From Gemmatimonadota bacterium (GTDB lineage Bacteria > Gemmatimonadota > Gemmatimonadetes > Longimicrobiales > Gaopeijiaceae), in the NCBI GenBank assembly GCA_022827345.1, contig JAJDTB010000055.1:1-54258 (forward strand): a stretch of 54,258 nt of DNA. Reading direction: 5' to 3'. The notes under the pieces are model-generated. The model worked only from the letters and a program-made list of their open reading frames with translations, ran no database searches and was not told the origin of the DNA. Of the stretch, positions 18,701 through 46,363 are shown one piece after another. Made by a program: the position numbers and the translations under genes. Within the stretch, counting starts at the first letter, position 1, and each line of letters begins with the position of its first letter.

Positions 18701-19835
18701 CGAGATCGGTATCGATGAGATCCAGATGCGTCAGCTTGGTGAGGTTGCCCAGCTCGGGCGGGATGGACCCGGAGAAGTTGTTCACCCAAAGCGCCAGGTT
18801 GGTCAGATTCTCGAGTTTGCCCAGCTCCGCTGGAATGGTGCCCGTGAGGCCGGTGCCGGCGAGTGCCAACTCTCTCAGGTTGGCCAGATTGCCGAGCTCG
18901 GGTGGGATGGGAGCGGGAAGCAGAGACCCATAATTGAAGTCGTAGATGGTCAGCTGCGTCAGATTGGCGAGATCGCCCAGTTCGGACGGAAGAAAGCCCG
19001 CCAGGTTGTTGTTGCTGAACCGGAGGCCGGTGACTCTTCCTTGAACATCGGTCTCCACCCCATGCCACTCGCCCAGCGGCCTGTCGCTCAGCCAGTTGGT
19101 GTTGTCGGTCCAGTTGTCGCCATCGGTGGCCTCGTACAGCGCGACGAGCACTTCGCGATCCGCGTCCTCGGAGCGCGACTGCACCCGCAGCGTGGCCTGT
19201 GCGCCGATGGATCCGGAAGTCGCCGTTACATGAGCCGTTCCGTTCCCCACGGCTGCCACGAGGCCGTTCGCGGAGACCTTGGCAACGTCGGGATCGGAGC
19301 TTGCCCATGTCACGTCGGCGGCGACGACGACGTTGCCCGCCGCGTCGTACACCGTCGCCGTGAGCGTGGCCGTGTCACCCAGCGCCGTAAGGGCCAGTTC
19401 GCTCGGTGAGACCACCGCCGAGGCCGGGACTTGATCGACCGTCGCCGTCGCGGAACCCGAGGCCGAGCCCGCAGTCGCCGTTACCAGTGCGGAGCCGTTT
19501 CCCACAGCTGCCACGAGCCCGTCCGCGGCGACGGTGGCAACGTCGGGATCGGAGCTTGCCCATGTCACCTCGGCGTCGGCGATGACGTTGCCCGCGGCGT
19601 CGTGCACCGTCGCCGTGAGCGTGACCGTGTCGCCCAGCGCCGTAAGGGTCAGTTCGCTCGGTGAGACCACCACCGAGGCCGGGGATAGCCGAGGATTCGG
19701 GGAATCGGTGGGTGAGGTTGAGCCGTCCGAGCATGCCCATAAGGCGACGACCGCCAGTAGCGCGGCACGCGTTCGTCTCCGGGAAGGCGTCGATCTGAGC
19801 GAGTGGGGATCGTGAGCGTCCATGCCTTCCAACAT
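15717..19835 (-). CDS. Giant LRR / Big-2 / metzincin lipoprotein
   Basis: The product is 1372 residues from ATG 19835; an internal ATG at 19823 is also possible. The signal peptide ends with a lipidation Cys35 (VVALWAC-SDGS). Two bacterial Ig-like (Big-2) domains follow, each built on VVSPSEL-LTALGDT-TLTAT and ending VTATxGS. From about 225 to 830 there are plant-type leucine-rich repeats (NLxxLxLxxNxLxGxIPxELGxL), in several blocks separated by 'DREVLxxLYxATxGxxWxxxxNWL' caps. The C-terminal part has a zinc-protease site HEFGHNMLLSH at 1129-1139 and a Met-turn DLMSYC near 1183, the metzincin pattern. It is predicted to be a surface-anchored protein-binding peptidase. A fragment of a relative is at 30480-30775. 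The substrate is unknown. Confidence 0.85.
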   Translation of the reverse strand: MLEGMDAHDPHSLRSTPSRRRTRAALLAVVALWACSDGSTSPTDSPNPRLSPASVVVSPSELTLTALGDTVTLTATVHDAAGNVIADAEVTWASSDPDVATVAADGLVAAVGNGSALVTATAGSASGSATATVDQVPASAVVSPSELALTALGDTATLTATVYDAAGNVVVAADVTWASSDPDVAKVSANGLVAAVGNGTAHVTATSGSIGAQATLRVQSRSEDADREVLVALYEATDGDNWTDNTNWLSDRPLGEWHGVETDVQGRVTGLRFSNNNLAGFLPSELGDLANLTQLTIYDFNYGSLLPAPIPPELGNLANLRELALAGTGLTGTIPAELGKLENLTNLALWVNNFSGSIPPELGNLTKLTHLDLIDTDLVGIVPPELIGLPLSYFAWDSYEGLCMPGTPAFADWVAGIEVHRGNDYCNAPDLAVLDSLYRTAGGPGWTSSAGWFEGEVPVLDRWHGVSAEDSLGRVTGIDLAGNGLSGELPLGLGDLGQLTALRLGDNPGLSGFLPHTMPRLSALREFRYSGTDLCVPTEAFIRRWLDALEVHEGTGMDCEPTPDREVLRKLYDAMGGERWFDTGNWFTDAPLREWHGVDADGQGRVVGLDLSHNGLVGTFPPDIVGLGALVSLSLSGNDLSSGPIPPELGGLVNLEVLDLAGIRVTGTIPAELGDLTRLRELDMSGNKLSGGIPDALADIATLTHLDLADNVLNGSIPARLAELSGLQQLHLEGNGLSGPLPPALGNLPELRVLDLSGNAISESIPAALGDFAKLEYLNLSYNELSGPVPPELARIAGLTELFLGGNRLSGPLPPEIGDLARLRSLAVTNNAEMSGPLPASLMNLGELSHLHATGTGLCAPPEEALLAWLNALLIRRVRRCDSDPAPAYLTQAAQSLDLPIALVAGEEALLRVFPTATRANSERIPPVRAAFYLNGSFVHSVDISDKPGPIPTEVDEGSLARSANAPVPAEIVQPGLELVIEIDPEGTLDTDLEVTRRIPETGRLEVEVRAMPLFDITFIPFLWEANPDSTVIGLTSGMEADPTGHPMLGPTRTLLPVGDLTVAAHAPVVSTSNEAGNLIGQVQAIRAIEGGSGYYMGLLSGEFSGAAGIGNLGRRTAYSVTSSSVIAHEFGHNMLLSHTPCGRPAGVDPAYPYAEASPGIWGYDFSEGGRLIPPTEYKDLMSYCSPYWVSDFSFDKALRHRLQSEGLLDAAAAARPVTSLLIWGGVDSLSVPFLEPAFVIRAPPAMPETVGSHQITGRSRDGDQLFSLSFAMPRAEDGDGGSSFAFAVPASAAWAEDLASITLSGPGGSFTLDAGHDRPMAILRDRTTGQVTGFLRDARVAVAAMDADADAGPANLVLFSRGIPDPEAWRR

Positions 19836-20260: not shown

Positions 20261-23200
20261 TCAAGTGCTCCCAAGCGATTCGGGCGAGGCAGATCCGGGC
20301 CGGGACCGGCGCCGCTGCTCGTAGAGACCGAGCGCGCGCAGGGGAAAGTAGTCTCGATACAGGGCGTACTCCAGCAGCGCCGTCCGGAAGAAGACCCCGG
20401 ACGCCTGCTGCCTGGGCCATGCGCCATCCGCGTCCTGGGTGTCGATCAGGAACCGGATGCCGCGTGAGATTGCGCTCCAGTTCGAATCGTCGGCGGTGAG
20501 GAGCGCGATCAGCGCCCACGCGGTCTGGATGACCTGGCTCTGCTCGTGCGGGACGTATCGGCCGATGGCGCACCCGCTGTGGTGTTCGCCCCACCCCCCG
20601 TCCGGTCGTTGACGGTCCAGCAGCCACCGGCACGCGAGACGCAGCGCCGGATCCCCGGGACGGGCACCGGCGGCGACGAGGCCCCGGACGCCGAACATCG
20701 TGCCGTAGATGAAATGGACGCCCCACGCACCACGCCAAGACCCATCGCTTGCTTGGCCCCGCCGAAGCCACGCTTCGGCCTTTGAGACGGCATTCGCAAT
20801 CTCTCCATTCGTCGAAGGTGCGAGGCGCTGCTGGCAGACAGCCAGCGCCGCGAGGCAAGACGCGGTGCATTCGACGTAGGAGCGCTCGGTCATCGAGTCG
20901 CCGAACATCTCTGCGGGATTCAGCCACTCCAGTCCGATCCTCGAACGCCGCGCCTCGTAGCTGCCGAACCCGCCGTCGCGGTTCTGGCCGCGCAGCATGA
21001 ACCCGGCCGCATCGCGGAGCATGGTCGCGTCGGCAGCGTCGGGATGCGCTTCGATGATCCCCATCAAGGCTTCGGCGGTGCAGTCGGTGACCGGCCACCC
21101 ATTCCACGCCCCGGGGAAGCACCAGCCTCCCTTCGGGTCGGTGCGATGCGCCGCGCGAAACCCGTCGAAGCTGACGCCGACCTGTTGCCCGCCCAGGTAG
21201 GATGTCCCTTGCCGAAGGGCGTCCCCGACGCCGTCAACATCCGCGACCGTTGCCAGTGCTTGCAGAGAGAGTCCGGTATCCCAGGAAGCGCTCCTCGCTC
21301 CGGTAACCCGCGCTCCATCCTCCTCGTCCTCCCAGATCCAGCCGCCCAGCTGCCTGAGTGCCCGGCGGCAGTCGGTGTCGTACGGATCATGCAGCCACAG
21401 GGCGAGGATGTTGATGAGACCGCTGACGGGCGAGATGCTCGCGTGGTCGGTGGTTCGCAGCTCCCACCTGATCGCCCGGAGGATCGCTTCCACGCATCGC
21501 GCTCGGAGACGCTTGCCGTGGAACCGTTCGACCAACCTCGCGAACTCGTATCCGGCCCGAAGCCACGGGCTGGGCCGGGCGCAAAGGTCCTCATCTCGCA
21601 ACCGGTTGCGGCACCCGGAGAAATCGATGTCTGCGAACGGCTCGGCAAACAGCTCCTCCCGCAACGAAGCGGTCAACGGCGTGACGGGCACCTGAAACCG
21701 CTGCGCGTAGACCGCGGCCATGGCCATGTAAATGAGCCGCGTGTGGCAGTACCAGTTGGCGGGATGCAGGGGGATTAGGCGCGGCAGGCTCCACAGTTCC
21801 GGCAGGATGGGGTTGACTCCGCGCCAGTCGTGGAGATTGAGGAGCGCCAGCCAGAATTTCCCCCAACTCGGGATACGGAGAACGTCCTCTTCCCGCAGGA
21901 ATCGTCGAGCCGACTCTATCAATGGGTCGTCCCGCTCAACCCCGAGAAGTCTCGCCGCCACATAGACCAGCGTCGAGACGAACAGGTGGGGAGCCGAGTG
22001 TTCGTGCAGACCCCAGGCACCCCCTTCGAGACGGGTCCGTTCGAAGGACCGCAGCACGCGGCGGCGGCGACCGGCGCTGAGCCGCCGTCCAAGGAGATGG
22101 TGCAGCAACACGTACTGCGCCGTGAGCATGGGACACCAGACCATCTCGCCTTCCCAAGCGCCGTCCTCCCCTTGGAGGTTCAGCAGGCGCGCACTCGCGC
22201 GGCTCAAGGCCAGTCCGGCGTCGCATGAAGCCACTTCGCCCGGGGGCGTCGGACGAGCGTTGCCCGGACCCGGCGGCATCGACGCCGGCAACGCGCGACC
22301 CAGGGAGTCCAGAATCCGCTCGTCCTCTGTTCCCCTCCTCCTTGCCCTACGCAGCAGCTCGACGCTGCGCAAGAGCCACCCGACGCGGACGGACAGCGCA
22401 TGAACGGTGTCGCGGGCACGCCGCCAGGCGGCTTGGTCGCAGGATCGCGGGATCTCCCGGGCGATCGCCCGGGCCAGCATCGCGCCTCCGGTGAGATTGA
22501 GACGGGCTGGCGATGTCTCTTCGCAGGCGAGTAGACGGATGGTCCGGTCGCGGAATGAGGAACTCGCCCGCCAACGCCGGTAGACGGCGCGTCTGACCGC
22601 AGCGGACTCGGACCGGTGATCGACGAAGACCTCGTAGAGCTCCATGGCGAGGAGTTCCGGCGTATGGGTCGCCCTGAACCGCTTGCGCTTGAAGTCGTCG
22701 AAGTCGCCAGCCTCGGCCAGCGTCAGCGCATCGCCGAAACCGAGTGTCATTCCCGACGCCGTCATGGGATGATGGTGCCCGGCCGCATCGCCGATGAGCA
22801 CGCGATGCGGGGTCCCGTACGTCACGCGCGGCCTGAGTTCATTGGCGGCCGTGTCGAACCTTCCCGCCCGAAGCGCCTCGAAGAAGCCGGGTCGGAGGTT
22901 CTCGGGAATCAGGTCGGCATAGGCATCCGAGAGGAAGCCGATCCGGTCCCGGGGGATCCACTGGTCCGGCGGAACGTCCACGATGATGCGGACACGTTGC
23001 TCTCCCAGTTGGTACATGAGAACTGGACCCGGCCCGCCGAGCACGACATACCCGTAACCCTCAAGCGGCAGGCTCGCTCCTCTCGTCGTGACTCCGACCA
23101 TCCGCGAGCAGGTTGTCCGGCCCGCCGATACGCCCAGCGACCGGCGCACGGTCGAGGCCCGGCCGTCGGCGCCCACGATCCGCCCCGCGGTCACGGACTC

Positions 23201-23638
23201 CTCGGCTCCGTCACGGACAAAGACGACCCTACCGTCCTCCACCGAACGTACGCGGGCACGGTGGATGAAGGCGACATCGGATTCGTTCTCGACCGCGTCA
23301 CGCAGGACCGAGACGATCGCCTCGTGCTCGCACGACAGTCCGTGAGATCCGTCCGCATAGGGAAGCACGATCGGCTCGGATCCGTCTTCCGGGAGAACTA
23401 CGAAGCCCCTGCCCGTTGTACTGCATGGCTGCGTCCCCAGCTCTATCCCCAACTCCCGAAGGATCCGCACGGCAGGCGGATGCAGCCACTCCCCCGCCAT
23501 TCGCCTCGAAGACCTCAGATTCGCTTCCAAGAGGGCGACGCGAGCGCCCCTCCGCCCGTGCGCGATGGCGCACAGACTGCCCACCGGACCCGCGCCCACG
23601 ACGACCACATCGTAGTCCTGCGAGCGGTTGGCGCTCAC
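20261..23638 (-). CDS. Squalene monooxygenase-oxidosqualene cyclase fusion
   Basis: A single 1125-residue frame starts at GTG 23638, in a GTGA overlap with the upstream stop. Residues 1-430 are an FAD monooxygenase of the squalene epoxidase type: GAGPVG at 15-20, RMAGEWLHP at 46-54, GADG at 156-159, PVLMYQ at 205-210, and the second FAD motif GDAAGHHHPMTASGMTLGF at 283-301. After an Arg/Pro-rich linker (430-470), residues 470-1110 align throughout with eukaryotic-type oxidosqualene cyclases. The acid motif is TDCTAE with Asp852, not the DxDD of hopene cyclases. There are several QW motifs, plus WYCHTRLIYMAM, YVECTA and GVFFRTALLEYALYRDYFPLRAL. Inferred reaction: squalene to 2,3-oxidosqualene (needs O2 and a reductase), then a lanosterol-like tetracycle, at the inner membrane. 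It is the central gene of the window. Confidence 0.93.
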   Translation of the reverse strand: MSANRSQDYDVVVVGAGPVGSLCAIAHGRRGARVALLEANLRSSRRMAGEWLHPPAVRILRELGIELGTQPCSTTGRGFVVLPEDGSEPIVLPYADGSHGLSCEHEAIVSVLRDAVENESDVAFIHRARVRSVEDGRVVFVRDGAEESVTAGRIVGADGRASTVRRSLGVSAGRTTCSRMVGVTTRGASLPLEGYGYVVLGGPGPVLMYQLGEQRVRIIVDVPPDQWIPRDRIGFLSDAYADLIPENLRPGFFEALRAGRFDTAANELRPRVTYGTPHRVLIGDAAGHHHPMTASGMTLGFGDALTLAEAGDFDDFKRKRFRATHTPELLAMELYEVFVDHRSESAAVRRAVYRRWRASSSFRDRTIRLLACEETSPARLNLTGGAMLARAIAREIPRSCDQAAWRRARDTVHALSVRVGWLLRSVELLRRARRRGTEDERILDSLGRALPASMPPGPGNARPTPPGEVASCDAGLALSRASARLLNLQGEDGAWEGEMVWCPMLTAQYVLLHHLLGRRLSAGRRRRVLRSFERTRLEGGAWGLHEHSAPHLFVSTLVYVAARLLGVERDDPLIESARRFLREEDVLRIPSWGKFWLALLNLHDWRGVNPILPELWSLPRLIPLHPANWYCHTRLIYMAMAAVYAQRFQVPVTPLTASLREELFAEPFADIDFSGCRNRLRDEDLCARPSPWLRAGYEFARLVERFHGKRLRARCVEAILRAIRWELRTTDHASISPVSGLINILALWLHDPYDTDCRRALRQLGGWIWEDEEDGARVTGARSASWDTGLSLQALATVADVDGVGDALRQGTSYLGGQQVGVSFDGFRAAHRTDPKGGWCFPGAWNGWPVTDCTAEALMGIIEAHPDAADATMLRDAAGFMLRGQNRDGGFGSYEARRSRIGLEWLNPAEMFGDSMTERSYVECTASCLAALAVCQQRLAPSTNGEIANAVSKAEAWLRRGQASDGSWRGAWGVHFIYGTMFGVRGLVAAGARPGDPALRLACRWLLDRQRPDGGWGEHHSGCAIGRYVPHEQSQVIQTAWALIALLTADDSNWSAISRGIRFLIDTQDADGAWPRQQASGVFFRTALLEYALYRDYFPLRALGLYEQRRRSRPGSASPESLGST

Positions 23639-27141: not shown

Positions 27142-30100
27142 TCAATGCCCCATCCGGTACGTCAGCGAGAGCTTGATCCGCCGACCCTTGGGGCTGTGCG
27201 TGAAGCCATCGTAGGATGCTTCCCACCTGACCAGTGGAGGATCGGCGTTCAGCGCGTTAAGTACGGACAGGCCCATGTCGAGCTTTCCGGACGTGCGCCT
27301 GAGCAGACTGACATCCCATGTCATCCAGCGGTCGATGTCCTCGTACCGGGTGCCCACAAAGGCCTCGTTGGTGTAGCCCGAGACCGCGTTGAGGTGGTTG
27401 ACCACGCTGTAGTCGCCCACATGGTATCCGGCGGAGAAACTCGATTTCCATTGGGGAAGCGGAGGGGCGATGGGATTGGCCCAGTTCAGCTTCCCCGCGG
27501 CGTCATGTGCCGCGAGCACCTCAACCCCGTCCACATCCAGCGCCCGGACGGTGAACTCCCTGCCGTAGGTGCCGTCCAGTTCGAGTGACATGATCGCCTC
27601 GCCGCGGGGGATGCGGGTGCTGGCGTGAAAATCGATGCCCGACATCCGGACGCCCGGCCAGTTGACGAAGCGCACCTCGATCCGCTCCACCGACTGGATG
27701 TCGCAGGTGCCGGTGCCCTTGCCGTCGGGACAGGTGACGAAACTCCTCACCGCCTCCCGCCGGCTTCCGCCCATGGCGTAGAGGCTGGCGATACCCTCGT
27801 AGGGCAGGACGTCGATGACGTTCTCGAAGTCGTAGTCCCAGTAGTCGACCGAAGCGCGGAAGCGCGGCAGTTGGAAGGTCGCGCCCACGTTGTAGGTGAA
27901 GGCCCGCTCGGGGACCAGATCCTTGTCGCCGTAGGTGTCGATCCCCTTGTAGACCCCGGCCGCGCTCAGATACTCCAACGCCGTGTTCAACTCTTCGTTG
28001 AGGTCGTCGACGGAAGGGGTCCGGAACGTGGTCTGGACCGATCCGCGCAGGGCGATCGGCTCGGCGAGCTCGACGCGGAGCGCGACCTTGGGGTCGAAGC
28101 TCCGGACCGAGCCGTGAAACTCGTAGTTGGCGGCGATCTGCCCGTGTATCCGGTGCCCGAGTTCAAGGCGGGACTCCGCAAACAACCGATGTACGGTCTG
28201 GGCGTCTTCGTAGGGGAAGAAGCCGCCAGTCAAGTGGAAGGGGCCGAACGGGTCCGGGCAGCCGTGGTCCCCCGGGACGGGGCACGGCGTTACCTCGAGG
28301 TTCCCGGGATCGTTGGGCTCGGCCCCCACACCCAGCCTGCGAAACTGGTAGCCGGCAGCGTATTCCGCCTGCTCCGACAGGGCGCCCTTCAGGAGCGCGT
28401 CCACGACGAACAGGTCGGCTTCGTTGTCCAGATTGACTTCGTCGTTGATCCAGTCGATCAGCTCCCGGGGGTTCTCCAGGCCCGGGGTGTAGTCGGGATT
28501 GGCCTGGTCGCGATAGCGCGCCCCCGGCTGCACCGAATGTTGATGGGCGGTGCTGAACGGGTTGTAGTACATGCAGTCGCCCTGCCCGGCCACCTTGCCG
28601 CCCAGGGGCCCCAGCGCCATGCCGGACGGGCTCGATCGGTCGACGACCACACCGACCCCGCAGTCCGGCCCTCCGAAGCCCCGGAACGCCAGGAACTTGC
28701 GGTGGAGGTACTCGCCGGGGAGGTTGGCGTTGCCCGTCGACCGGGAGAAGCTGGCGGCCAGTTCGAGGGCCGCCTCCCTTCCCCCGAAGGCTTCGAGTTC
28801 CCGTTCGATGGAGCCGGCGATCCGCCGGGTGCGCGAATCGCGGCGCAGCGTCCGCGGGGGACCGGAGTTGCCGACCATGCGGCCGAAGAAATACCAGTTG
28901 TTCTCCAAGCACGCCTCCGTGCCGGAGAACCCGGCACGATGTCCGTAGCTGCCGCAGAACACCTGCCGACCGGGATGCCCGGGCTCGATCAACTGGGTTC
29001 CATCGTAGAGCGAGATGGGCAGGTAGGAGGGTGTGGTGCGCCAGTTGGGCGTGCTGGCCTCCGCCCAGAGGGCTTCCAGATGGTAGCTGGTCCCGTCGCC
29101 GATACCGCCGTTCAATTCGGCGAAGGCCCGGACCTGGCGGGAAGCCTCGGCCAGGTTGTCGAAGGGCCCGTAGTCGAAGCGGCAGGTCTCGTCCGGTTCC
29201 AGGAAGCCACCGAACCCCTCGCACCGCGGATCGACGAAGACGCCTCCCCAGCCTCCGTAGTGCGCGTCGGTCAGGGCCGCAACGAACTCCTCGGCCGTCT
29301 CGTTCCCCGTCAGTCTGGGGAAGAGGAAGGCGCCTGGATTGCCGATGTACGACCACCCGCCACCGCCCGGAACGAACCCGCCCAGCGTCCAGTCCCGCTC
29401 TTCGACCGTGAGTTCCCGAGTGACGAACGCCTCGGCGGACACCACTGCGTGCGCACGCTCGCCCAACTCCGAGCCCCAGATGGCGCCGGCGTTCGTTTCT
29501 CCCGCTCCCGAGAAATACTCGTGGGAGCCGGAGATCTCGAAGCCCTCGAAGTCGCCGCGGGTCAGAAAGTTGACCACCCCCGTCACCGCGTCGGACCCGT
29601 AGACCGCCGACGCTCCCTCCTTGACCACCTCGATCCGGTCCAGGGCAATCGACGGAAAGGCGTTGACATCGACGAAACGGCCTCCGGCGAGGCGAAGCGG
29701 GATGTACACCTGGCGGCGTCCGTTCAGAAGCACGAGGGTCCGCGAAGCCCCCAGCCCCCGAAGATTGACGGACGCCACGGTCTCCGATACGAGGCCGGGC
29801 GGCCGCGCGCTGTACCATCCCTGGCGGGCACCGAGAATGCCGTGCATGGCGGTGAGGTTCCGGAAGAAGTCGAACGCCTGCGGCGAGCCCTGTTCGGCGA
29901 GCGTCCGGCGACCCGCGACCGAGACCGCGTAGGGGAGTTCGACGGGCGACTCCGCGAAGGCCGTGCCGGTCACCACCAGTTCGTGCAGGCGCAACGCCTC
30001 GGGCTCCATCCGCAGTTCGACGACGACGGCATCACCCGCGGTCACGGTCACGGACCGGGACAGGGTTTCGTACCCCAGCATCTCGACCTGAATCCGATGG

Positions 30101-30336
30101 GTGCCAGCAGGAACGTCGGCCATGACGAAGCGACCCCCCTCCCGCGACAGGACTAACCTTTCCAGCGCGGCCAGTTCGATGCGGGCGCCCCCCAACGGAC
30201 GGGACGTAGCGGCGTCGAGCACCGCGCCCGCAAGAGTACCGCTCTCCTGTGCAGCGAGATTCCCCGGAAGTGAGCCGCCAGCCAGAAGTCCAAAGACGAA
30301 AACGGCAGCGGCAAGAGAGTGGAGCCATCGTCGCAT
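27142..30336 (-). CDS. TonB-dependent outer-membrane receptor 2
   Basis: ATG at 30336 after GGAAGGG gives 1064 residues. The signal peptide ends LPGNLAAQES. The carboxypeptidase-like domain (TLAGAVLDAATSRPLGGARI ... HRIQVEMLGYETL) covers about 33-110. The plug has ELVVTGTAFAESPVELPYAV, NLRGLGASRTLVLLNGRRQV and ALDRIEVVKEGASAVYGSDA, and the barrel ends IKLSLTYRMGH. It is a close paralogue of receptor 1, sharing loop Cys pairs and whole sentences of the barrel. Differences concentrate in surface loops, for example the segment after GVGAEPNDPGNLE, so the two may import different ligands. An IS110 stub lies 70 bases beyond its 3' end, which suggests the copy arrived or was bordered by a transposition event. 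Confidence 0.93.
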   Translation of the reverse strand: MRRWLHSLAAAVFVFGLLAGGSLPGNLAAQESGTLAGAVLDAATSRPLGGARIELAALERLVLSREGGRFVMADVPAGTHRIQVEMLGYETLSRSVTVTAGDAVVVELRMEPEALRLHELVVTGTAFAESPVELPYAVSVAGRRTLAEQGSPQAFDFFRNLTAMHGILGARQGWYSARPPGLVSETVASVNLRGLGASRTLVLLNGRRQVYIPLRLAGGRFVDVNAFPSIALDRIEVVKEGASAVYGSDAVTGVVNFLTRGDFEGFEISGSHEYFSGAGETNAGAIWGSELGERAHAVVSAEAFVTRELTVEERDWTLGGFVPGGGGWSYIGNPGAFLFPRLTGNETAEEFVAALTDAHYGGWGGVFVDPRCEGFGGFLEPDETCRFDYGPFDNLAEASRQVRAFAELNGGIGDGTSYHLEALWAEASTPNWRTTPSYLPISLYDGTQLIEPGHPGRQVFCGSYGHRAGFSGTEACLENNWYFFGRMVGNSGPPRTLRRDSRTRRIAGSIERELEAFGGREAALELAASFSRSTGNANLPGEYLHRKFLAFRGFGGPDCGVGVVVDRSSPSGMALGPLGGKVAGQGDCMYYNPFSTAHQHSVQPGARYRDQANPDYTPGLENPRELIDWINDEVNLDNEADLFVVDALLKGALSEQAEYAAGYQFRRLGVGAEPNDPGNLEVTPCPVPGDHGCPDPFGPFHLTGGFFPYEDAQTVHRLFAESRLELGHRIHGQIAANYEFHGSVRSFDPKVALRVELAEPIALRGSVQTTFRTPSVDDLNEELNTALEYLSAAGVYKGIDTYGDKDLVPERAFTYNVGATFQLPRFRASVDYWDYDFENVIDVLPYEGIASLYAMGGSRREAVRSFVTCPDGKGTGTCDIQSVERIEVRFVNWPGVRMSGIDFHASTRIPRGEAIMSLELDGTYGREFTVRALDVDGVEVLAAHDAAGKLNWANPIAPPLPQWKSSFSAGYHVGDYSVVNHLNAVSGYTNEAFVGTRYEDIDRWMTWDVSLLRRTSGKLDMGLSVLNALNADPPLVRWEASYDGFTHSPKGRRIKLSLTYRMGH

Positions 30337-30479
30337 CGAGTCGCCCTTCCTTCAAGAGGTTGCGCGCGGCAGTCGGACGGCCCGAATGCGGCCCGTCCCG
30401 CGCGCGAAGCTGATGAGACGTACACCACTGAAACGACGATGCACCGAGGGACGAAGTCAATTCGTGGCTTACGCCGCTG

Positions 30480-30775
30480 ACGACGATGTCGGAGCCGGAA
30501 AGCGGCGAGTTCGCCCGGTCGTCCGAGGAGGACAGCAGTGCGGGCGGCGGATCGGTGAGCAAGCCGAGCACGTGCCCGTAGGTCGGATCGCGGACGATGA
30601 TGGCGGGTGCGTGGGTCTCTGGGTCCAAGGAGGCGACTCCGCCGGGTCCTTCGAGCGTGATGCGTTCGATGGCTCCGGCCCATCCCCCGGGCGCGGGAAT
30701 GGCGAAGACGAACGACGACGCACCATCCAGGTGCGCGGTCTCGGGCATGTCAAAGCCGATCGAGAACAACGTCAT
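30480..30775 (-). pseudogene. C-terminal fragment of the LRR/metzincin family
   Basis: MTLFSIGFDMPETAHLDG, then SSFVFAIPAPGGWAGAIERI, TLEGPGGVASLDPETHAPAI and IVRDPTYGHVLGLL match the last 110 residues of the giant lipoprotein at 15717-19835 (LFSLSFAMPRAEDGDGGSSF ... ITLSGPGGSFTLDAGHDRPM). Nothing upstream of this segment remains. It is a truncated duplicate. Confidence 0.75.
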
Positions 30776-30807
30776 AGCGACTGCGCTGGACGCCGACAGT
30801 GTGGCAG

Positions 30808-30870
30808 GTCGACGCGGTTGCGGGTCCCCATCGGCCCGGGCGACAGATCTGTCGCCCGCCTCGCCACGCC
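30808..30870 (+). pseudogene. Scrap of a LysM transglycosylase gene
   Basis: STRLRVPIGPGDRSVARLAT matches PTRLRVPIGAGDRFLARLAA in the transglycosylase at 10904-12118, also at the DNA level (CGGTTGCGGGTCCCCATCGG). Only about 20 codons remain. Confidence 0.7.
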
Positions 30871-30890
30871 CAGCCTCGATTCGGGAGTAG

Positions 30891-32016
30891 CTACGGATCC
30901 ACCTGCTGGTAGAATCTCTTCACGCCGTCAGCGATGGTCATGATGACCGCGCTCTTGGTCGGATGGCGAACTTCGTTGTAGTGTGAGATATATGTCGCCC
31001 CGGCATACCGTTCGGTAGCCAGCAATTCCCGCCGGACGGCATCCGCATCGAGACTGCCCGCCCGGGCGGCGGCCTCCAGAAACAGCCGGACCGCATCGTA
31101 GCTCACCGCGTCTCCGCCCGCGGGGTCGATCCCGTACCGCGTACGATAGGTATCGACGAATGCGCGTGCGGCCGGCTCGTCGGTGTCCGGCGAGAAGTGA
31201 GTGCTGAAGAAGCTGCCATCCACGGCGGCTTCCTCGTGTTCCAGCAGCGCCGGGTTGTCCCACACATCGGCCCCCAGGAACACCGTCGGCTCGCCATCGG
31301 CATCGCGTAGCGGCAGGGCGCGCGCCTGCGCGGTCAGGAGCGCAACTTCTTCGTCCGAGCCGGGAAGGAACAGCGCCGCCGGAGCCGAAGCCGCGATTTC
31401 CGTCAGTTGCATGGTGAAGTCCGTCTGGCCACGCTCGTAGGACTCATCGGCGACGATCGTCCCGCCCAAGCTACGGAAATGGGCGACGAAAAAGTCTCCG
31501 ATGCCCTCGCTGTACACGTTCCCCCGCTCGGTCAGGACGGCAGCCGTCGTCGTGCCGAGCATCTCGAACGCAAAATCGGCCATGACCCGTCCCTGAAACT
31601 GATCGGTGAATGCGGCCATGAAGACCAGGTCGCCCGCCGCAGTCACGCCCGGATTGGTGGCCGCCGTCGTGACCATCGGGACGCCGTGGCGTTGCGCGAC
31701 GGCCCCTACCATGATTGCGTGCGCCGAGCGGTTGGGTCCAATGAGGGCGACCACTTCGTCGCCGAGGATCATCGCTTCCGCCGTATCCACCGCTTCCGCC
31801 GCTTCCGCCAGTCAGTTCGACGGAACGGCCCAACAACCCGCCGCGCCCGTTGACCTCGTCCACCGCGATCATTGCACCGTTCGAGAAGGTGCGGACGCCC
31901 GAGACCAGAAAGCCGACCTTCACCGGGGTCTCCTCGTCAAGGGAGACCGGGGCGGTTCTGTCGTCACACGCGGCCAGGACGGTGGCCGCGACCAGGGCGG
32001 CTTGTAGTAGTCTCAT
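30891..32016 (-). pseudogene. Branched-chain amino-acid-type binding lipoprotein, frameshifted
   Basis: The first frame (ATG 32016) gives a lipoprotein signal with Cys17 (VLAAC-DDR), then TPVKVGFLVSGVRTFSNGAM and AVDEVNGRGGLLGRSVELT. At about 31800 it must switch frame to AEAAEAVDTAEAMILGDEVV, ALIGPNRSAHA, after which the periplasmic-binding fold (Peripla_BP_6) runs intact to QVDP at 30891. The joint lies in a run of GGCGGAAGC 9-mers, which in the first frame give a GGSGGS stretch. The length is not divisible by three, so a single frame change is needed. It would bind an amino acid or amide for an ABC importer, but no permease genes are nearby. Confidence 0.75.
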
Positions 32017-37150: not shown

Positions 37151-37333
37151 CTCACGGCGGCCTGGTTGCAGCGGTACACCCCGTTACTGCGGAGCTAAGG
37201 CAAATCAGTCCGATCCAGCCATTCCTTCGCCCGCGCCCCCTTGCAATCGTTCCCTGGCGACCACCGAGGGATCGACAAACCGGCAGCCACCGGACCTGTT
37301 CGTCCGCTCATCTCAAGCCAGGAAAGACAGGTC

Positions 37334-38344
37334 ATGCCGAAGCGGCCAGGACAGGCCACAAGCGCAAAACACGACGCATCCTACAAGGGCTTCTTCGCCC
37401 AAAGGCGCACCGTGACGGACACACTGCTTGGCGCCGCGCACGAGTTGGCCCGACACCTCGACTTCTCTACCCTCGAACGGCTCCCGGCCAGCTTCGTCAC
37501 CGAACACCTCGGCCAGCGCCACGCCGACATGGTGTGGCGAATCCAGACCACGAAAGCCCAGTGGCTGTATGTCCTGGTTCTACTCGAATTCCAGTCTACC
37601 ATCGACCGCCGCATGGCCCTGCGCATGACTGACTATACGATCCGCGTCCTGAGGGGTCTTAGCCGAGACGAGCTCGGTTCCCGTGGTGAGTATCCGGTGG
37701 TGCTCCCAATCGTGGTCTACAACGGGGAGCAACGCTGGACTGCCGCGAAGGACATCCGTGATCTGTTTGGGCCGGTGCCGCAGGAGTTGCTTGGATACAT
37801 GCCGCGCCATCGGTATCTTCTCATCAACGTGCAGGCGATTGATCCGTCGGCACTACCACGTGAAAACGTGCTCGCGATGATCGCGCGGATGGAGCAGGCC
37901 TCGACGCCTGCGGCGGTGCAGGAGTTGGTTGCTCCGTTGGCAGACTTGCTTCGGCAAATCAGCGAACCGGAGTTGGCAGAGACCTTTCGGGCCTGGATCA
38001 AGCTGGTGCTGCTGCGGCGATTCGGTTCGAAGGGCAGGGAGTTGACGCGCAAGCTCGAGAAAGAGGAGGAAGGACAGATGACGACATTGCTCGACCGGGC
38101 CCGCAAGTGGGGCGAAGAGCGCGATCAGTTGTGGCTGGAGAAGGGCATTGAGCGAGGACGGATCGAGGGGGAACGCGAGTTGGTCCATCGGATGGTCGCC
38201 CGGAGATTCGGTTCCCGTACCGCAGAGCAAGTCCTTGCGCGGCTCAACGACCTCTCCGACCCGGAAGACTTCGCCGACGTGGCAGACGCAGTCATCGAAT
38301 GCCAGACCGCTGCGGAATTCCTGGCGCGGGTCAAGGAAGCCTGA
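37334..38344 (+). CDS. Rpn/YhgA-type recombination-promoting nuclease
   Basis: The ATG at 37334 with AGGAAAG upstream was preferred over 37241. The product is 336 residues. The N-terminal PD-(D/E)XK core reads HDASYKGFFAQRRTVTDTLL, then HADMVWRIQ and VLVLLEFQSTIDRRMALRM, the Asp ... Glu-x-Gln catalytic pattern of PF04754 ('putative transposase, YhgA-like'). The middle has VVLPIVVYNGEQRW. The C-terminal half is helical and charged (RELTRKLEKEEEGQ, then ERGRIEGERELVHRMVARRFG), a tail typical of Rpn proteins. Family members are DNA endonucleases that promote RecA-independent recombination; some act in phage defence. It stands alone. Confidence 0.88.
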   Translation: MPKRPGQATSAKHDASYKGFFAQRRTVTDTLLGAAHELARHLDFSTLERLPASFVTEHLGQRHADMVWRIQTTKAQWLYVLVLLEFQSTIDRRMALRMTDYTIRVLRGLSRDELGSRGEYPVVLPIVVYNGEQRWTAAKDIRDLFGPVPQELLGYMPRHRYLLINVQAIDPSALPRENVLAMIARMEQASTPAAVQELVAPLADLLRQISEPELAETFRAWIKLVLLRRFGSKGRELTRKLEKEEEGQMTTLLDRARKWGEERDQLWLEKGIERGRIEGERELVHRMVARRFGSRTAEQVLARLNDLSDPEDFADVADAVIECQTAAEFLARVKEA

Positions 38345-40643: not shown

Positions 40644-41096
40644 ATGAGTAAGAGACTGCAGGTCGTGATGTCCGACGCCGACCTCGAGGAGGTCCGCGAC
40701 GCAGCCAGGCGCAACAACGTCACGGTATCCGCGTGGGTGCGCCGCACGTTGCGCGCCGCGGGGGAGCTTGATCGGCGCGGCGGGGCGGCCGCGGTGCGCG
40801 AAGCGCGCCCCAACTACTCCGCCATCAAACCGGAGTTCCTCCGCTACGTCACGATCGAAGTGAGGCTGCTGGAGGAGGACCTGGAAGCCGTGCGTCGGCG
40901 CTACAATCTGCGCGACTGGTCTTCGGCAGTGAAGGAGGCGGTCTTCAGGCAGTCGATCGTCCCGATGACCAAGGAGGAAGCGCTCGCGATGCGGGGCGTG
41001 GGGTGGGATGGAGATCTCGACGAACTACGGAATGAGCCCCCAATCGAGATGATCTACCCCGATGACCAGGTACTTGACCCAAGTGACACCGATTGA
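40644..41096 (+). CDS. VapB-like antitoxin with two DNA-binding-type segments
   Basis: The product is 150 residues, about twice the usual antitoxin length. Residues 1-42 (KRLQVVMSDADLEEVRDAAR, then VSAWVRRTLRAA) form a ribbon-helix-helix as in CopG/MetJ antitoxins. Residues 65-135 (YVTIEVRLLEEDLEAVRRRY, DWSSAVKEAVFRQSI, TKEEALAMRGVGWDGDLDEL) resemble a separate VapB antitoxin of the 'MAxRGxGWEGDLDxLR' type. It looks like a fusion of two antitoxins, with one half binding the operator and the other the toxin. The toxin gene follows after six bases, and the palindrome lies just before. The fusion reading is inference. Confidence 0.75.
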   Translation: MSKRLQVVMSDADLEEVRDAARRNNVTVSAWVRRTLRAAGELDRRGGAAAVREARPNYSAIKPEFLRYVTIEVRLLEEDLEAVRRRYNLRDWSSAVKEAVFRQSIVPMTKEEALAMRGVGWDGDLDELRNEPPIEMIYPDDQVLDPSDTD

Positions 41097-41102
41097 GTTA
41101 CG

Positions 41103-41546
41103 GTGATCGTTGACACATCGGCCTGGATCGAGTACACGCGGCGCACGGAAGGCCCGTTCGACCTCTTCGTAGACGCCGCGATCCGATCCGACCAACCCAT
41201 TGCCACGCCCGCTGCTGTTGTGATGGAGTTGCTGTCGGGTAGTCGCAGCGAAGCCGAGGCCGTGGAACTCCTGCAACTCCTGAACCGCTTCGAGATTCTG
41301 GAGCCCGATTCGCTCGGCGTATACCGGGAAGCCGCGCGCATCTACCGCGTCTGTCGCAGGGCCGGATTCACGATCCGCTCGATGATCGACTGTCTGGTCG
41401 CCGCAACCGCGGTGGACAAGGGCCGCCCCCTGCTGGCGCGCAACCGCGATTTCGACGTCATCGCGCGCCACACGCGCCTTGAGCTGGTCATCCCGCCGGA
41501 TCCGGGACCGCCGCAAAAGCCGCCGCGGGGGTGGTCCGGGGAGTAG
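41103..41546 (+). CDS. VapC-type PIN-domain toxin
   Basis: GTG start at 41103, six bases after the antitoxin. The product is 147 residues. The PIN acidic residues are all present: MIVDTSAWIEY (Asp4), VVMELLSG (Glu), SMIDCLVAATA (Asp) and ARNRDFD (final Asp). The fold is a Mg-dependent ribonuclease, usually cutting tRNA or rRNA when the antitoxin is degraded. The last 15 residues are Pro-rich and outside the domain. The pair appears intact, unlike the one at 53094-53620. Confidence 0.92.
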   Translation: MIVDTSAWIEYTRRTEGPFDLFVDAAIRSDQPIATPAAVVMELLSGSRSEAEAVELLQLLNRFEILEPDSLGVYREAARIYRVCRRAGFTIRSMIDCLVAATAVDKGRPLLARNRDFDVIARHTRLELVIPPDPGPPQKPPRGWSGE

Positions 41547-41616: not shown

Positions 41617-43395
41617 CTACCCGAGCGGCGGACGGTGGTGATGCACCCCCAGCCGCTCCTCGAGCGCCCGGGCCAGCGCGAGGATCTTCCCCTCTTCGAA
41701 GAGTCGGCCATGAAAAGCCACATTGCGGGTGATCGTGTGCGGCTCTCCCTGCGGATCGTCGGGAACGGGGCCCGCGCTTCGGGTCGGACTCCGGTCCAGG
41801 CCGGCGCGCAGGGTGATCCCGGGGTGTCCGGTGTAGTTCATCGCCATCAGCAGCTCGAAGGAGCCGTAGGTCGGGGCGAAGAGGGCGTCCACGTCGCTGT
41901 AGATGCGGTGGAACTCGTGCATCAGGTGCCGGCGCAGGCGTTCGGCCTGCAGGTAGTCGACCGCGGACAGCATCCGCACCTGCCGCCAGGCGTTGGGCCA
42001 GCCCTCGGGAGGCAGCTGATCGTCGCGGCCGTCGAGGGTGAGCGCCTCGTAGATCGCGGCTGCTTCGGCGTAGAGGTTGGGGATGAGCGCCGCATAGGGG
42101 AACGGCGGCAGCTCCACCTCGACCAGTTCCACGCCGAGTTCGCGGAGCGCGTCGAGGGCGGCCAGGTGGGCGTCCGCGGCCGGGGCGGTGGCGCCGGTGA
42201 AGCCGACCTCGCGGAACCAGTCCGGTGAATGGCCCACGCGGATGGCGGCCGGGTCGAAGCGGGCGTCGTATTGGAATCCCATGGGGATGGAGGACGCCGA
42301 CGTGGGATCCGGGCCGTTGATCGCGGCCAGGACGGGGACCGCATCCTCGACGCGGCGGGTGAGGGGGCCGATCCGGTCGAGGCTCGGTGTCAGAGGCATG
42401 GCGCCCTGGGTCGGTACCCGGCCGAAGGTCGCGCGCAGGCCGACGACGCCGCACTGGTCGGCGGGGTTGAGGATCGAGCCCAGGCTGTCGGTCCCGATCG
42501 AGAACGAGCACAGCGCGGCGGCGGTCGCGGACCCCGGCCCGGCGCTGGAACCGCCCGCGTGCTCATCGGTGTTCCACGGGTTGCGGACCTTGCCGCCGTA
42601 CCAGCGGTAGCCGTTGGCGAGGCTGGCGGTGGCGAGCTTACCGAGGAGGACGGCGCCCGCGTCGCGGAGCATGGTGACGATGCGGGCGTCGCGGTCGGGA
42701 ACCTGGTCCCGGAAGGGGGTTGCGCCCCAGGTGGTGGGGATCCCGGCGGTGTCGAAGCAGTCCTTGATGCCGTAGGGGATGCCGTGCAGTTCGCCGCGGT
42801 ATGTGCCCGCCGCCAGCTCGCGGTCGGATTCGTCGGCCTGGCTCAGCGCGTGGTCGGCGGTGACGGTGATGTAGCAGTAGAGGTCGGGGGCGAGGCGCTC
42901 GATGCGCGACAGGTAGATCTCGGTGAGGCGGCGGCTGGTGATCTGGCCGGTGCGGATCCAGTGGGCCTGCTCGCGGACCCCGGCGTAGGCGATGTCGGCC
43001 TCGTCGTCCGGGAGAGGGGCGGGTCCGGCGCCGGACATCTCGAGGCGGTCTTCCTGCTCGGGGTAGGCGACGCCAGGCAGGCGGGGGTCGAAGGTGATGG
43101 CGGGCTGCAGGCTCAGCTCGCGCGGGACGTCGCGGAGCTGGAGAACCCCGGCGATCTGGCTGCCGATGGTCTGGACGAGTTGGTCCCGCTCCTCCGGGGT
43201 GTAGACGACGCCGTGGAGCTTCTCGGCCTCGGCGAGGGTTGCGGCGGTGATCTCGGCGGACGCGTTCGTCCCTGCTTCCGCGGGTGCCGCCGGCCCGTCG
43301 CCCGCGTCAGGTTGGCAGGCCAGCGTTCCTGCGGCCAGCGCGGCCGAGCCGGCAAGGAAGTCCCTGCGGGATGGAGTCGTTGGAGTGGCTCCCAT
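41617..43395 (-). CDS. Amidase-signature enzyme, Tat-exported lipoprotein
   Basis: ATG at 43395 with GAGGAGG upstream gives 592 residues. A twin-arginine signal (SRRDFLAG, Arg10-Arg11) runs to a lipidation Cys27 (GTLAC-QPD). The amidase signature follows: catalytic Lys in GIKDCFDT, the Gly/Ser stretch HAGGSSAGPGSATAAAL with the cis-Ser, and the nucleophile Ser in GTDSLGSILNPADQCGVVGL. Family enzymes hydrolyse carboxamides. Export as a folded lipoprotein suggests scavenging of amides from outside. The residue after the second Gly-Ser-Ser (Ala instead of Gly) is a small deviation. It is co-oriented with the exported ureohydrolase at 43478-44755, 82 bases apart. Confidence 0.9.
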   Translation of the reverse strand: MGATPTTPSRRDFLAGSAALAAGTLACQPDAGDGPAAPAEAGTNASAEITAATLAEAEKLHGVVYTPEERDQLVQTIGSQIAGVLQLRDVPRELSLQPAITFDPRLPGVAYPEQEDRLEMSGAGPAPLPDDEADIAYAGVREQAHWIRTGQITSRRLTEIYLSRIERLAPDLYCYITVTADHALSQADESDRELAAGTYRGELHGIPYGIKDCFDTAGIPTTWGATPFRDQVPDRDARIVTMLRDAGAVLLGKLATASLANGYRWYGGKVRNPWNTDEHAGGSSAGPGSATAAALCSFSIGTDSLGSILNPADQCGVVGLRATFGRVPTQGAMPLTPSLDRIGPLTRRVEDAVPVLAAINGPDPTSASSIPMGFQYDARFDPAAIRVGHSPDWFREVGFTGATAPAADAHLAALDALRELGVELVEVELPPFPYAALIPNLYAEAAAIYEALTLDGRDDQLPPEGWPNAWRQVRMLSAVDYLQAERLRRHLMHEFHRIYSDVDALFAPTYGSFELLMAMNYTGHPGITLRAGLDRSPTRSAGPVPDDPQGEPHTITRNVAFHGRLFEEGKILALARALEERLGVHHHRPPLG

Positions 43396-43477
43396 GTCTG
43401 CCTCCTCGGCCGTGCGGCCGTCGCCTGGGTCTGGCTTCACCTGCCAGTCGGTCGTCCTCCGCCGCGCTGCCTCTGCC

Positions 43478-44755
43478 CTACCTCCGCGCGTCGCGCCTCG
43501 TCAGCGGACTCAGGTAATCCCGGCTCCCGAGCCCCAGCTTCCGCATCGCGACCCCCGTCAGGCACTCGTCCACCACCTGCTTGGCGTTGAGCGTGGTCGT
43601 ATAGCCCGGGTCGACCAGCGGGTTGAGCTCGACCAGGTCGAAGCCCACCAGGTTGTTCTCGGAGCAGAGCCCGCGCAGGATCGGAAAGACCTCGCGGGGG
43701 GTGAGGCCGCCGGGCACGGGGGTGCCGGTGCCGGAGGTGTACGCCGGATCCATCACGTCGATGTCGAACGAGATGTGCAGGTACTCGGGCCCGTCGTTGG
43801 CCTCGTCGAGGACGCGCTGCATGACCGTGGCCCAGCCGTCGCGGTCGATCTCGGCCATTGTGTGGTAGCGGAACTCGTTCTCGCGCATCCACTCGAAGCC
43901 CTCCGGGCCGGGCCAGCTGCCCCGCAGCCCCACCTGGATGAAGTTGCGGCCGAGGATGTGGCCTTCGTCGACCAGGCGGCGAACCGGCTGGGCGTGCGAG
44001 ATCAGGTGGCCGCTGCGGGTGCCGCCGGCGTCGTAGTGCGCGTCGAAGTGGATGACGCCGACGTTCTCCTTGCCGTACACGTCGGCGAGGCCGGCCACAT
44101 TGGCGAACTCGATGGAGTGGTCGCCACCGATGATCACCGGAATCGCGCCGGTCTCGGCGATCTCGCGCACCATGCGGCGGATCGGCTCCATGCTGCGCTC
44201 GGTGCTGAGGTTGTCGATCGGCGCGTTGCCGTAATCGACCGCCGTGAGCTCGCGCCGCCAGCTGATCATCGTCTCCATGCTGCCGGTGCTGCGGCGCATC
44301 GCACGCAGCGCGGTGGGACCCTCGCCGGCGCCGCGGAAGCCGACACCCATGTCGACCGGCGCGCCCATGAAGGCCACCTCGACCTCGCCCGCGACCAGGT
44401 CCTCGATGGTGCGCGCGATCGGCAGCCCGAAGAAGCTCAGCACCGAACCGATCCGGATCGGGCCGGGTTCGCGGGGCGGGTCGTTCGAGATGTCGCGGTC
44501 GCGCCACACCTCGAGGTTCGGATCGTTCGGGTCGAGGCGGATGATCGCGGCTTCGGGGTCGGGGGCTTGCTGCTCGGTGGTGTCGGCGGCCGGGGCGGTG
44601 GTGTCGGTGGCTTCTCCGGCGTCGGCTTCGGCACCCGGCGGCGTATCGGCTCCGGAATCGGCGGGCGGGGTCTCGCAGGCCACGGCGAGAAGCCCCGCGA
44701 AGGCAGCAATCAGGAATCCAACGAGCGCATGCGTGAAGGGCAGATCGTCTTTCAT
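43478..44755 (-). CDS. Exported ureohydrolase lipoprotein (agmatinase/arginase family)
   Basis: The product is 425 residues. Residues 1-27 form a lipoprotein signal (FLIAAFAGLLAVAC, Cys27). An acidic Ala/Thr linker runs to about 68. The ureohydrolase fold then shows all Mn ligands: GGDHS at 210-214, DAHYD at 238-242 and SFDIDVMDP at 329-337, with His151-type loops retained around. The family hydrolyses a guanidino group to urea plus amine; the long form fits the agmatinase/guanidino-acid branch. Family members are normally cytosolic, so a lipoprotein export signal is unusual. It precedes the Tat amidase on the same strand and diverges from two amidohydrolases. The substrate is uncertain. Confidence 0.9.
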   Translation of the reverse strand: MKDDLPFTHALVGFLIAAFAGLLAVACETPPADSGADTPPGAEADAGEATDTTAPAADTTEQQAPDPEAAIIRLDPNDPNLEVWRDRDISNDPPREPGPIRIGSVLSFFGLPIARTIEDLVAGEVEVAFMGAPVDMGVGFRGAGEGPTALRAMRRSTGSMETMISWRRELTAVDYGNAPIDNLSTERSMEPIRRMVREIAETGAIPVIIGGDHSIEFANVAGLADVYGKENVGVIHFDAHYDAGGTRSGHLISHAQPVRRLVDEGHILGRNFIQVGLRGSWPGPEGFEWMRENEFRYHTMAEIDRDGWATVMQRVLDEANDGPEYLHISFDIDVMDPAYTSGTGTPVPGGLTPREVFPILRGLCSENNLVGFDLVELNPLVDPGYTTTLNAKQVVDECLTGVAMRKLGLGSRDYLSPLTRRDARR

Positions 44756-44944: not shown

Positions 44945-46363
44945 ATGGCGAAGAAACCACTCCTTCTTCTGTCCCTCGTCGCGGTGGCCGTCGCGCCACT
45001 CCTCACTTGCGACTCGGGTGACCAGCCGGCTCGACCGCCCACAGGCCAAGCCACCCTGGCCATCGAAGGCGTTTCGGTCGTCCCGATGGACACCGAGCGC
45101 GCTCTGCCCGACATGACCGTCCTGATCGGCGGCGGCCGGGTGCTGGCGATCCAGCCGTCCGGGGAGGCCGGTGAAGCCGCCATCCCCGACGGCGCCACCC
45201 GCGTCGACGGCCAGGGCCGCTTCCTGATCCCCGGCCTCAACGACATGCACGTCCACTTCCAGGAAGAGCAGGCGCTGGGCCGCTTCCTCGCCACCGGCGT
45301 GACCGGCATTCGCGTCCTCTGGGGCGGCCCCACCACCCTCGATTTCCGCGACCGCATCGCCCGGGGCGAACTTGCGGGGCCCGACATCCACACCGCGGGC
45401 ACGATCATCGAGGGCCTGCCGCCGCCCGAACTGGCCGCCGTCATCGACACCGCAGGCCGCGTCATCGTCCACGACTCGATCGACGGGGCCGCCGCCGTCC
45501 GCGAGCAGCACGCCGCCGGATACGACTTCATCAAGGTCTACAACAACGTCCCCGCCTCGGCCTACCGCGGCATCGTCGCCGAAGCCGCTGCGCTCGACAT
45601 TCCGGTCGCCGGTCACGTCCCCTTCGAGGTGGGCCTCGACGGCGCCCTCGCCGCCGGCCAGCACAGCATCGAGCACCTGCGCGGATACATCTGGCACCTC
45701 GTCCCCGAAGACGCGCCCCGGCAGCCCGGCGCCGACCTCCGCTCCCGCACCCTCGCCTGGGCCCACGGCGACCTCTCCCGCATCCAGGCCCTCGCCGAAC
45801 GCACGCGGGACGCCGGCGTGTGGAGCGTCCCGACCCTCTCCGTGCGCATGATCATGAAGCCGGACCGCCTCGTCGACGCGTACCTCGCCACCGAAGAAGC
45901 CTCCCACATGACCGACGCGATGCGCGCCTTCTACACCGAGCGCATGTCGATCCCCTGGATGAGCAACTTCGCCGCCGCCGACTTCGAGGCCGCGATGGAC
46001 GGGTTCGCGGTGGCCGATTCGCTGATCCGCGCGCTGGTGGGCGTGGGCGCCCCGGTGATGGCCGGCACCGACACCCCGCCGCTCGGCTTCGCTCTCCACC
46101 GGGAACTCGAGGAGCTTGTCGCGGCTGGCCTTTCGCCTTTTGAGGCGTTGCAGAGCGCCACGGTCCTCCCGGCACGCTTCCTCGAACGTGGCGATGGCGC
46201 CGGCATGGTGGCGGAGGGAAGTCCCGCCGACCTGGTGCTGCTGGAGGGCGATCCTCTGGCCGCCATCGGCAACACGCGGCGAATCGCGGGAGTCGTGCGG
46301 CGAGGCGAATGGCTCGACCGGGCGACCCTGGACACCATGCTACAGGAGGCCGCAGGACGATGA
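44945..46363 (+). CDS. Amidohydrolase lipoprotein 1
   Basis: ATG at 44945 gives 472 residues. The signal has Cys22 (VAPLLTC-DSG). The metal-dependent hydrolase fold follows: MHVHF (His102, His104), carbamylated-type Lys region FIKVYNN, AGHVPFEVG, SIEHLRGYI and final Asp in AGTDTPP. The ends ALQSATVLPARFLE and GSPADLVLLEGDPL are typical of the imidazolonepropionase/prolidase-like branch. It would hydrolyse cyclic amides or dipeptides such as X-Pro at the cell surface. Its stop overlaps the next start (ATGA), so the two amidohydrolases are coupled. The start region diverges from the ureohydrolase gene, sharing a 190-bp promoter space. Confidence 0.9.
   Translation: MAKKPLLLLSLVAVAVAPLLTCDSGDQPARPPTGQATLAIEGVSVVPMDTERALPDMTVLIGGGRVLAIQPSGEAGEAAIPDGATRVDGQGRFLIPGLNDMHVHFQEEQALGRFLATGVTGIRVLWGGPTTLDFRDRIARGELAGPDIHTAGTIIEGLPPPELAAVIDTAGRVIVHDSIDGAAAVREQHAAGYDFIKVYNNVPASAYRGIVAEAAALDIPVAGHVPFEVGLDGALAAGQHSIEHLRGYIWHLVPEDAPRQPGADLRSRTLAWAHGDLSRIQALAERTRDAGVWSVPTLSVRMIMKPDRLVDAYLATEEASHMTDAMRAFYTERMSIPWMSNFAAADFEAAMDGFAVADSLIRALVGVGAPVMAGTDTPPLGFALHRELEELVAAGLSPFEALQSATVLPARFLERGDGAGMVAEGSPADLVLLEGDPLAAIGNTRRIAGVVRRGEWLDRATLDTMLQEAAGR

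Follow-up and report, generated by a model that had tools for sequence, protein, structure and literature searches.

Introduction

Ureohydrolases are regarded as cytosolic enzymes, and guanidino nutrients are therefore presumed to be imported before their nitrogen is released. The stretch of Gemmatimonadota DNA analysed here (54,258 nucleotides, contig JAJDTB010000055.1; hereafter the window) encodes a ureohydrolase that appears to begin with a lipoprotein signal, raising the questions of whether the signal is genuine and what such an enzyme would do outside the cytoplasm. It is probable, in our judgement, that the protein represents a distinct family of exported ureohydrolases, and that this lipoprotein member acts outside the cytoplasm, splitting a guanidino compound into urea and an amine. 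For the window protein we infer its lipidation, disulfide, metal identity, activity and substrate from the evidence assembled below.

Catalytic domain, metal site and fold

The gene and its catalytic elements are as follows.

43478..44755, reverse strand: exported ureohydrolase (predicted lipoprotein), 425 aa (ORF; PF00491 E=2.4e-74; AF2 pLDDT 82.6)
43538..44386, reverse strand: catalytic alpha/beta domain, residues 124-406 (Pfam, AF2 model, structure matches)
44114..44128, reverse strand: GGDHS metal motif with His213, residues 210-214 (sequence, alignment)
44030..44044, reverse strand: DAHYD metal motif with Asp238, His240 and Asp242, residues 238-242 (sequence, alignment)
43745..43771, reverse strand: SFDIDVMDP metal motif with Asp331 and Asp333, residues 329-337 (sequence, alignment)

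In a profile search the Pfam Arginase family matches residues 126-398 with 250.8 bits against a cut-off of 22, and the alignment retains the six ligands H213, D238, H240, D242, D331 and D333 along with equivalents of the catalytic H254 and E376. An earlier sequence-only reading of this DNA had recognised a ureohydrolase with all of its metal-binding motifs, and the profile and alignment bear this out. The AlphaFold2 model, built with 50 aligned sequences, contains a helix at residues 8-25 and matches ureohydrolase structures with Z of 34-40 over about 270-315 residues. All the fold matches listed are ureohydrolases, metformin hydrolase, guanidinase and proclavaminate amidinohydrolase being tied for the top among them, while the nearest solved structures by sequence, among the PDB matches listed, are guanidine hydrolases and guanidinobutyrase. 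Assignment to a curated family was rejected in each case tried, as the scores lie under the curated cut-offs for agmatinase (TIGR01230, 141.6 bits against 174.3), arginase (TIGR01229, 128.7 against 227.6) and formimidoylglutamase (TIGR01227, 149.5 against 229.15).

Export signal and cysteine pair

The N-terminus of the window protein reads MKDDLPFTHALVGFLIAAFAGLLAVAC-ETPP, with a hydrophobic stretch (LLAVAC) that closes at Cys27 and a following linker rich in Ala, Asp, Glu, Thr and Pro.

44678..44755, reverse strand: predicted lipoprotein signal peptide, residues 1-26, before Cys27 (sequence; homologue signals; alternative starts)
44546..44674, reverse strand: acidic low-complexity linker, residues 28-70 (sequence; pLDDT <50 at residues 32-63 of the AlphaFold model, indicating disorder)

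The lipobox is acceptable rather than textbook, since its -3 residue is Ala and the n-region (K2, D3, D4) carries a net charge of -1, without the positive n-region of a lipoprotein; in the other Gemmatimonadota-type copies, L089 excepted, this charge ranges from 0 to +6.

Scanning species genomes turned up 239 candidate stretches. Relatives are encoded by 176 of these; the best 80, representing 79 loci, were retained, and every one of the 79 loci was examined. The 5' end is readable at 74 of the 79, L057, L058, L059 and L101 being cut by a contig end and L047 being frameshifted. Among these best 80 of 176 relatives, one scorer assigned a signal-like N-terminus to 73 of the 74 readable loci, and the sole low scorer, L110, resembles a signal peptide by eye. 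Both the lipoprotein signal and the acidic linker had been proposed by the sequence-only reading, which had also suggested a survey of homologues as its check; the homologues, far from starting past the signal, carry one of their own. The 73 scored signals divide into 19 with a lipobox, 53 of peptidase-I type and one without a clear cleavage site (best 80 of 176 relatives), and five of the 53 (L038, L040, L043, L053, L079) end in Gly-Cys or Ala-Cys, outside the lipobox pattern. Consequently, the hydrophobic stretch ends in Cys in all 24 Gemmatimonadota-type copies within the best 80 of 176 relatives, 19 by pattern and five by eye, three of the 24 (L039, L041, L051) coming from bins titled Gammaproteobacteria. 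Hydrophobicity above 2.05 was found in 70 of 74 exported copies (best 80 of 176 relatives) as against none of 27 control ureohydrolases, a cut that was chosen afterwards with both sets already seen. The original cut of 1.8 is passed by 12 of the 27 controls, whose hydrophobic peak is at most 1.96; the hydrophobicity of their first catalytic strand accounts for this.

Were the signal an annotation artefact, a true start downstream would leave an ordinary cytosolic agmatinase-like enzyme. GTG codons at residues 83, 105 and 127 could serve such a start, and the catalytic domain alone begins near residue 124. Up to residue 130 the reading frame offers no start codons other than ATG1, GTG25, GTG83, GTG105, GTG127 and ATG130, and the protein aligns with gammaproteobacterial homologues from about residue 66 onward; this region being alignable across phyla, initiation at 83 or beyond would remove conserved sequence, and on the reading frame a later start seems unlikely. 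With the homologues' signals (73 of 74 readable loci among the best 80 of 176 relatives) differing in sequence, and with an invariant cysteine pair, we find the artefact scarcely credible.

The cysteine pair lies within the catalytic domain.

43664..43666, reverse strand: invariant Cys364, proposed disulfide partner (50/50 aligned exported copies)
43562..43564, reverse strand: invariant Cys398, proposed disulfide partner (50/50 aligned exported copies)

The alignment contains few cysteines besides these two, and none of the 15 cytosolic ureohydrolase rows has Cys at both columns or at either. In five PDB alignments, guanidinobutyrase has Cys at the first position of the pair, its alignment stopping before the second, and the remaining structures have no Cys at either. 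Judged by its conservation, the pair fits a disulfide formed outside the cytoplasm. Export is thus supported by homologue signals that vary in sequence and type with function kept, and by the invariant cysteines.

The N-terminus might instead be an uncleaved anchor with the domain facing the cytoplasm, as some Pseudomonadales signals look equally anchor-like and cleavable and the n-region of the window copy is net negative. The Cys-ended signals of all 24 Gemmatimonadota-type copies (best 80 of 176 relatives), the conserved cysteine pair and a twin-arginine-type signal on the next gene argue against it, and make an anchor highly unlikely.

Phylogeny and distribution

In a tree of 65 rows, with a long-branch warning among the cytosolic rows, a single branch separates all exported rows, whether active or degenerate, from the rest (94/94; recovered in 96% of bootstrap trees). 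The Gemmatimonadota rows group at 100/100, beside Pseudohongiella-type rows within a gammaproteobacterial clade (98/90, then 99/96). This nesting, together with Cys-ended signals in the one group and peptidase-I-type signals in the other, suggests that the signal was replaced and export retained; the simplest reading would be transfer from Gammaproteobacteria followed by the exchange of a peptidase-I signal for a lipoprotein signal.

Named relatives among the best 80 of 176 are mostly Gemmatimonadota, two being from Candidatus Palauibacter bins. Within the window's genus 12 of 23 genomes have the exported gene, as do 24 of 121 in its family (best matches <1e-50 for both) and 29 of 395 genomes of a phylum sample (cut-off 1e-60). 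Of the genus copies, that of G029 is split in two frames and that of G031 carries a stop (a broken gene or an assembly error in each), and G014 holds a fragment only. Around the Pseudohongiella-like genome G124, 29 of 119 genomes of its family have the gene; in a class-wide sample around G124 only one of 369 does, G124 itself, the sample centre, and the exported family is accordingly rare.

Gene neighbourhood and urea use in the window's organism

Two neighbours of the ureohydrolase require description.

41617..43440, reverse strand: amidase-signature enzyme, twin-arginine/lipoprotein-like N-terminus (PF01425 E=1e-74; TAT_signal just below cut-off)
44945..46363, forward strand: amidohydrolase, lipoprotein-like N-terminus, divergent neighbour, functional link only putative (PF01979)

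The amidase gene lies directly 3' on the same strand, starting at GTG 43440 or ATG 43395, and the spacing is about 40 bases with the GTG; the two genes likely form one transcript with the amidase second. The divergent side holds amidohydrolases with lipoprotein-like starts, so that the locus has the appearance of a compact group of genes for exported C-N hydrolases. That the amidase might trim the ureohydrolase's substrate as well is a guess. As a conserved functional partner it was rejected: an ortholog lies directly downstream in only seven of 79 loci (best 80 of 176 relatives), all close relatives, and it cannot therefore explain the ureohydrolase family.

Urease, UrtA and urea carboxylase are each found over curated cut-offs in none of the 23 genomes of the window's genus. 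Urea use by the host is not supported, as the weak matches to urease and urea carboxylase are far below cut-off with partial profile coverage. The amine is hence the likely prize in the window's organism. The sequence-only reading had an external guanidino compound turned into urea and amines, which appears right in kind given the active site and the relatives' clusters described below, with the correction that only the amine is likely to be used by this organism.

The window also holds several features of separate interest. A small gene pair at 40644-41546, the second gene encoding a PIN domain, resembles a toxin-antitoxin module, and in relatives the position of the PIN gene near the ureohydrolase gene is conserved. 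A single 1125-aa ORF at 20261-23638 joins FAD-dependent squalene epoxidase-like and squalene-hopene cyclase-like parts in an unusual fusion. A 1372-aa protein at 15717-19835 has bacterial Ig-like domains, leucine-rich repeats and a weak M66 peptidase match; a TonB receptor adjoins a periplasmic binding protein (Peripla_BP_6) at 27142-31790 on the reverse strand; and a YhgA-like putative transposase/nuclease (Transposase_31) lies at 37241-38344.

Gene clusters of the relatives

In a marine Pseudohongiella-like lineage, genes for a TonB receptor (recorded where the fetched stretch extends to it), exported ureohydrolases (three or four per cluster), PpiC, HupE, UrtA-E, UreD, UreC, UreE, UreF and UreG follow one another on one strand. 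Urt and urease genes are part of the cluster in seven genomes (G121, G122, G123, G124, G549, G555, G561), and the clusters of G574 and G589 extend to UrtA and then the contig end. At L122/L104, UrtA, UrtB, UrtC, UrtD, UrtE, UreC and UreG exceed curated cut-offs and UreD and UreF were identified by Pfam; the names in other genomes are based on tblastn to the L122/L104 genes. A gap of about 800 bases 5' of UreC would fit UreA and UreB. In G164 a urease follows a Urt set (L200), its link to the L108 copy being only putative. A complete active site, and relatives in which the genes of exported ureohydrolases stand ahead of those for a urea ABC transporter and urease, together support urea release outside the cytoplasm.

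An exported enzyme cutting another C-N bond without releasing urea, as in a formimino compound, an amidine or a substituted guanidine, deserves consideration, since the window protein stays under cut-off in the curated agmatinase, arginase and formimidoylglutamase profiles and since its fold relative metformin hydrolase is reported, in the part of the paper available, to yield guanylurea and dimethylamine (PMC11399263). Given that relatives directly precede a urea transporter and urease in seven genomes, we regard this as fairly unlikely.

Other contexts vary. A TonB-like gene lies 5' of the ureohydrolase in 13 of 79 loci (best 80 of 176 relatives), Pfam-checked at four of them (L112, L062, L061, L108). 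PpiC and HupE genes lie 3' in four Gemmatimonadota loci (L052, L054, L055, L056; L052 Pfam-checked), whose genomes are without urease where tested (G137-G139); both are also near L092 by Pfam, and HupE near L106 and L083 has no Pfam confirmation. Woeseia-type loci have hydantoinase/oxoprolinase, S58 peptidase and sodium:solute symporter genes adjoining the ureohydrolase. Three of these enzymes (L084, L086, L090) bear an N-terminal extension of about 100 residues. Urease was found in eight of the 45 genomes tested that have an exported copy, a test covering 45 of the 79 loci, and urea use is on this count not the family's general purpose.

TonB receptors usually serve larger ligands. The TonB-like genes beside 13 of 79 loci (four checked; best 80 of 176 relatives), with the S58 peptidase and sodium symporter of the Woeseia-type loci, would suit an exported peptidyl arginase acting on arginine side chains of peptides or proteins. 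The known peptide arginase, OspR, acts in the cytosol and, going by the part of its source available, is a RiPP maturase; we hold this alternative to be quite improbable, and retain a guanidino compound split into urea and amine as the preferred reading.

Active and degenerate copies

The searched contexts hold 37 ureohydrolase stretches, namely 18 active-type copies that retain the six ligands, His254 and Glu376, 18 degenerate copies, and one C-terminal fragment with active-type residues. All 18 degenerate copies have Asp254, Ser333 and Asp376, with Gly or Ser at position 238, and both cysteines are retained in all 36 active and degenerate copies. Nearly all carry signal-like N-termini, the exceptions being one degenerate copy cut 5' by the stretch and two low-scoring active ones; the start chosen for the degenerate copy at L199 is doubtful. 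Six degenerate copies are well conserved in mutual alignment and so are not apparently decaying genes. As degenerate copies nest in the exported family (100/99 in the tree), the pairing of active and degenerate copies seems to have arisen independently of that in metformin hydrolase, and the conserved inactive partners would be a second case of paired active and degenerate ureohydrolases.

At L122, L124 and L192-L204, degenerate copies (Asp254, Ser333, Asp376) adjoin active ones, and some of the degenerate copies have a lipobox-type signal where their active partners have a peptidase-I-type one.

Proposed route and its significance

In the preferred reading the signal-bearing protein would cross the inner membrane by Sec and be lipidated at Cys27, the acidic linker tethering the enzyme at the membrane, where a dinuclear-metal site would hydrolyse a guanidino compound to urea and an amine outside the cytoplasm. 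The Pseudohongiella-like route would lead from a TonB receptor to an exported ureohydrolase (active with degenerate partner), and onward through urea to UrtABCDE and urease. The window's organism, having no such cluster and an exported amidase alongside, would take up the amine and probably leave the urea outside.

A fuller scheme, to which we give about an even chance, envisages a marine route of TonB import, a disulfide-bonded heteromeric (active plus inactive) periplasmic ureohydrolase and UrtABCDE/urease, HupE and PpiC assisting extracytoplasmic metal loading and folding, with the Gemmatimonadota lipoprotein as a transferred stand-alone enzyme whose amine is kept and whose urea is left to neighbours. 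An exported family would shift the site at which guanidino nitrogen is freed and offers a possible path for urea as a public good in marine and sponge-associated communities, and the relatives' gene clusters are testable systems for the substrate of exported ureohydrolases.

Comparison with known systems

The genome carries three PF00491 genes, located respectively on C75, C64 and C30, and neither of the other two lies beside the exported one. Agmatinase L003 and arginase L002 share PF00491 with the exported enzyme and differ from it in exceeding their own curated cut-offs and in having neither signal nor cysteine pair, neither being scored as exported. Guanidinobutyrase and guanidinopropionase (3NIO, 3NIP) and proclavaminate amidinohydrolase (1GQ6) have the fold, metal site and TGTP motif in common with it at 28-31% identity, and are not known to carry a signal.

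Guanidine hydrolase GdmH, a cytosolic enzyme, provides the top PDB sequence matches listed (7ESR, 7OI1; 9FEK; E about 1e-40) and has the same metal ligands. Its specificity residues are Thr97 and Trp305 in Synechocystis numbering, according to the available part of PMC11410670. The window enzyme was rejected as a GdmH, for the PDB alignment places Gly139 and Thr345 at these positions, the correspondence of Thr97 to Gly139 assuming a two-residue chain offset.

The open-access PMC literature yielded no periplasmic or exported ureohydrolase, nor a Urt/urease cluster of one; an agmatinase of Streptomyces vesicles is tabulated with no signal predicted, to the extent that the table is legible (PMC4476819), and none of the terms sought occurs in a paper on Palauibacterales (PMC10469786).

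Metformin hydrolase / dimethylguanidine hydrolase (MefH, MetCaCb, DmgH; 8RYI, 8X3G, 8SNF) has the same fold, with Z of 39.5-39.8. In the portion of PMC11399263 available, the Aminobacter enzyme is encoded by active and degenerate subunit genes that have a HupE homologue and genes for urea transport in their vicinity, metal is present in the alpha subunits only, the degenerate beta subunit is nevertheless needed, and activation requires the nickel chaperones HypA/HypB. Active and degenerate genes, HupE and urea transport genes are, to that extent, shared by the Pseudohongiella-like clusters, whereas the signals, cysteine pair and TonB receptor set the exported relatives apart; the term "signal peptide" is nowhere in the text of that paper. 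The window gene was not accepted as such an alpha/beta pair, there being no degenerate partner beside it, and the pairing occurs in the Pseudohongiella-like relatives.

Overall, the fold and chemistry are already known, and what appears from the sequences to be new, as far as found, is the location, the cysteine pair, the switching of signals, the exported active/degenerate pairs and the association with Urt and urease.
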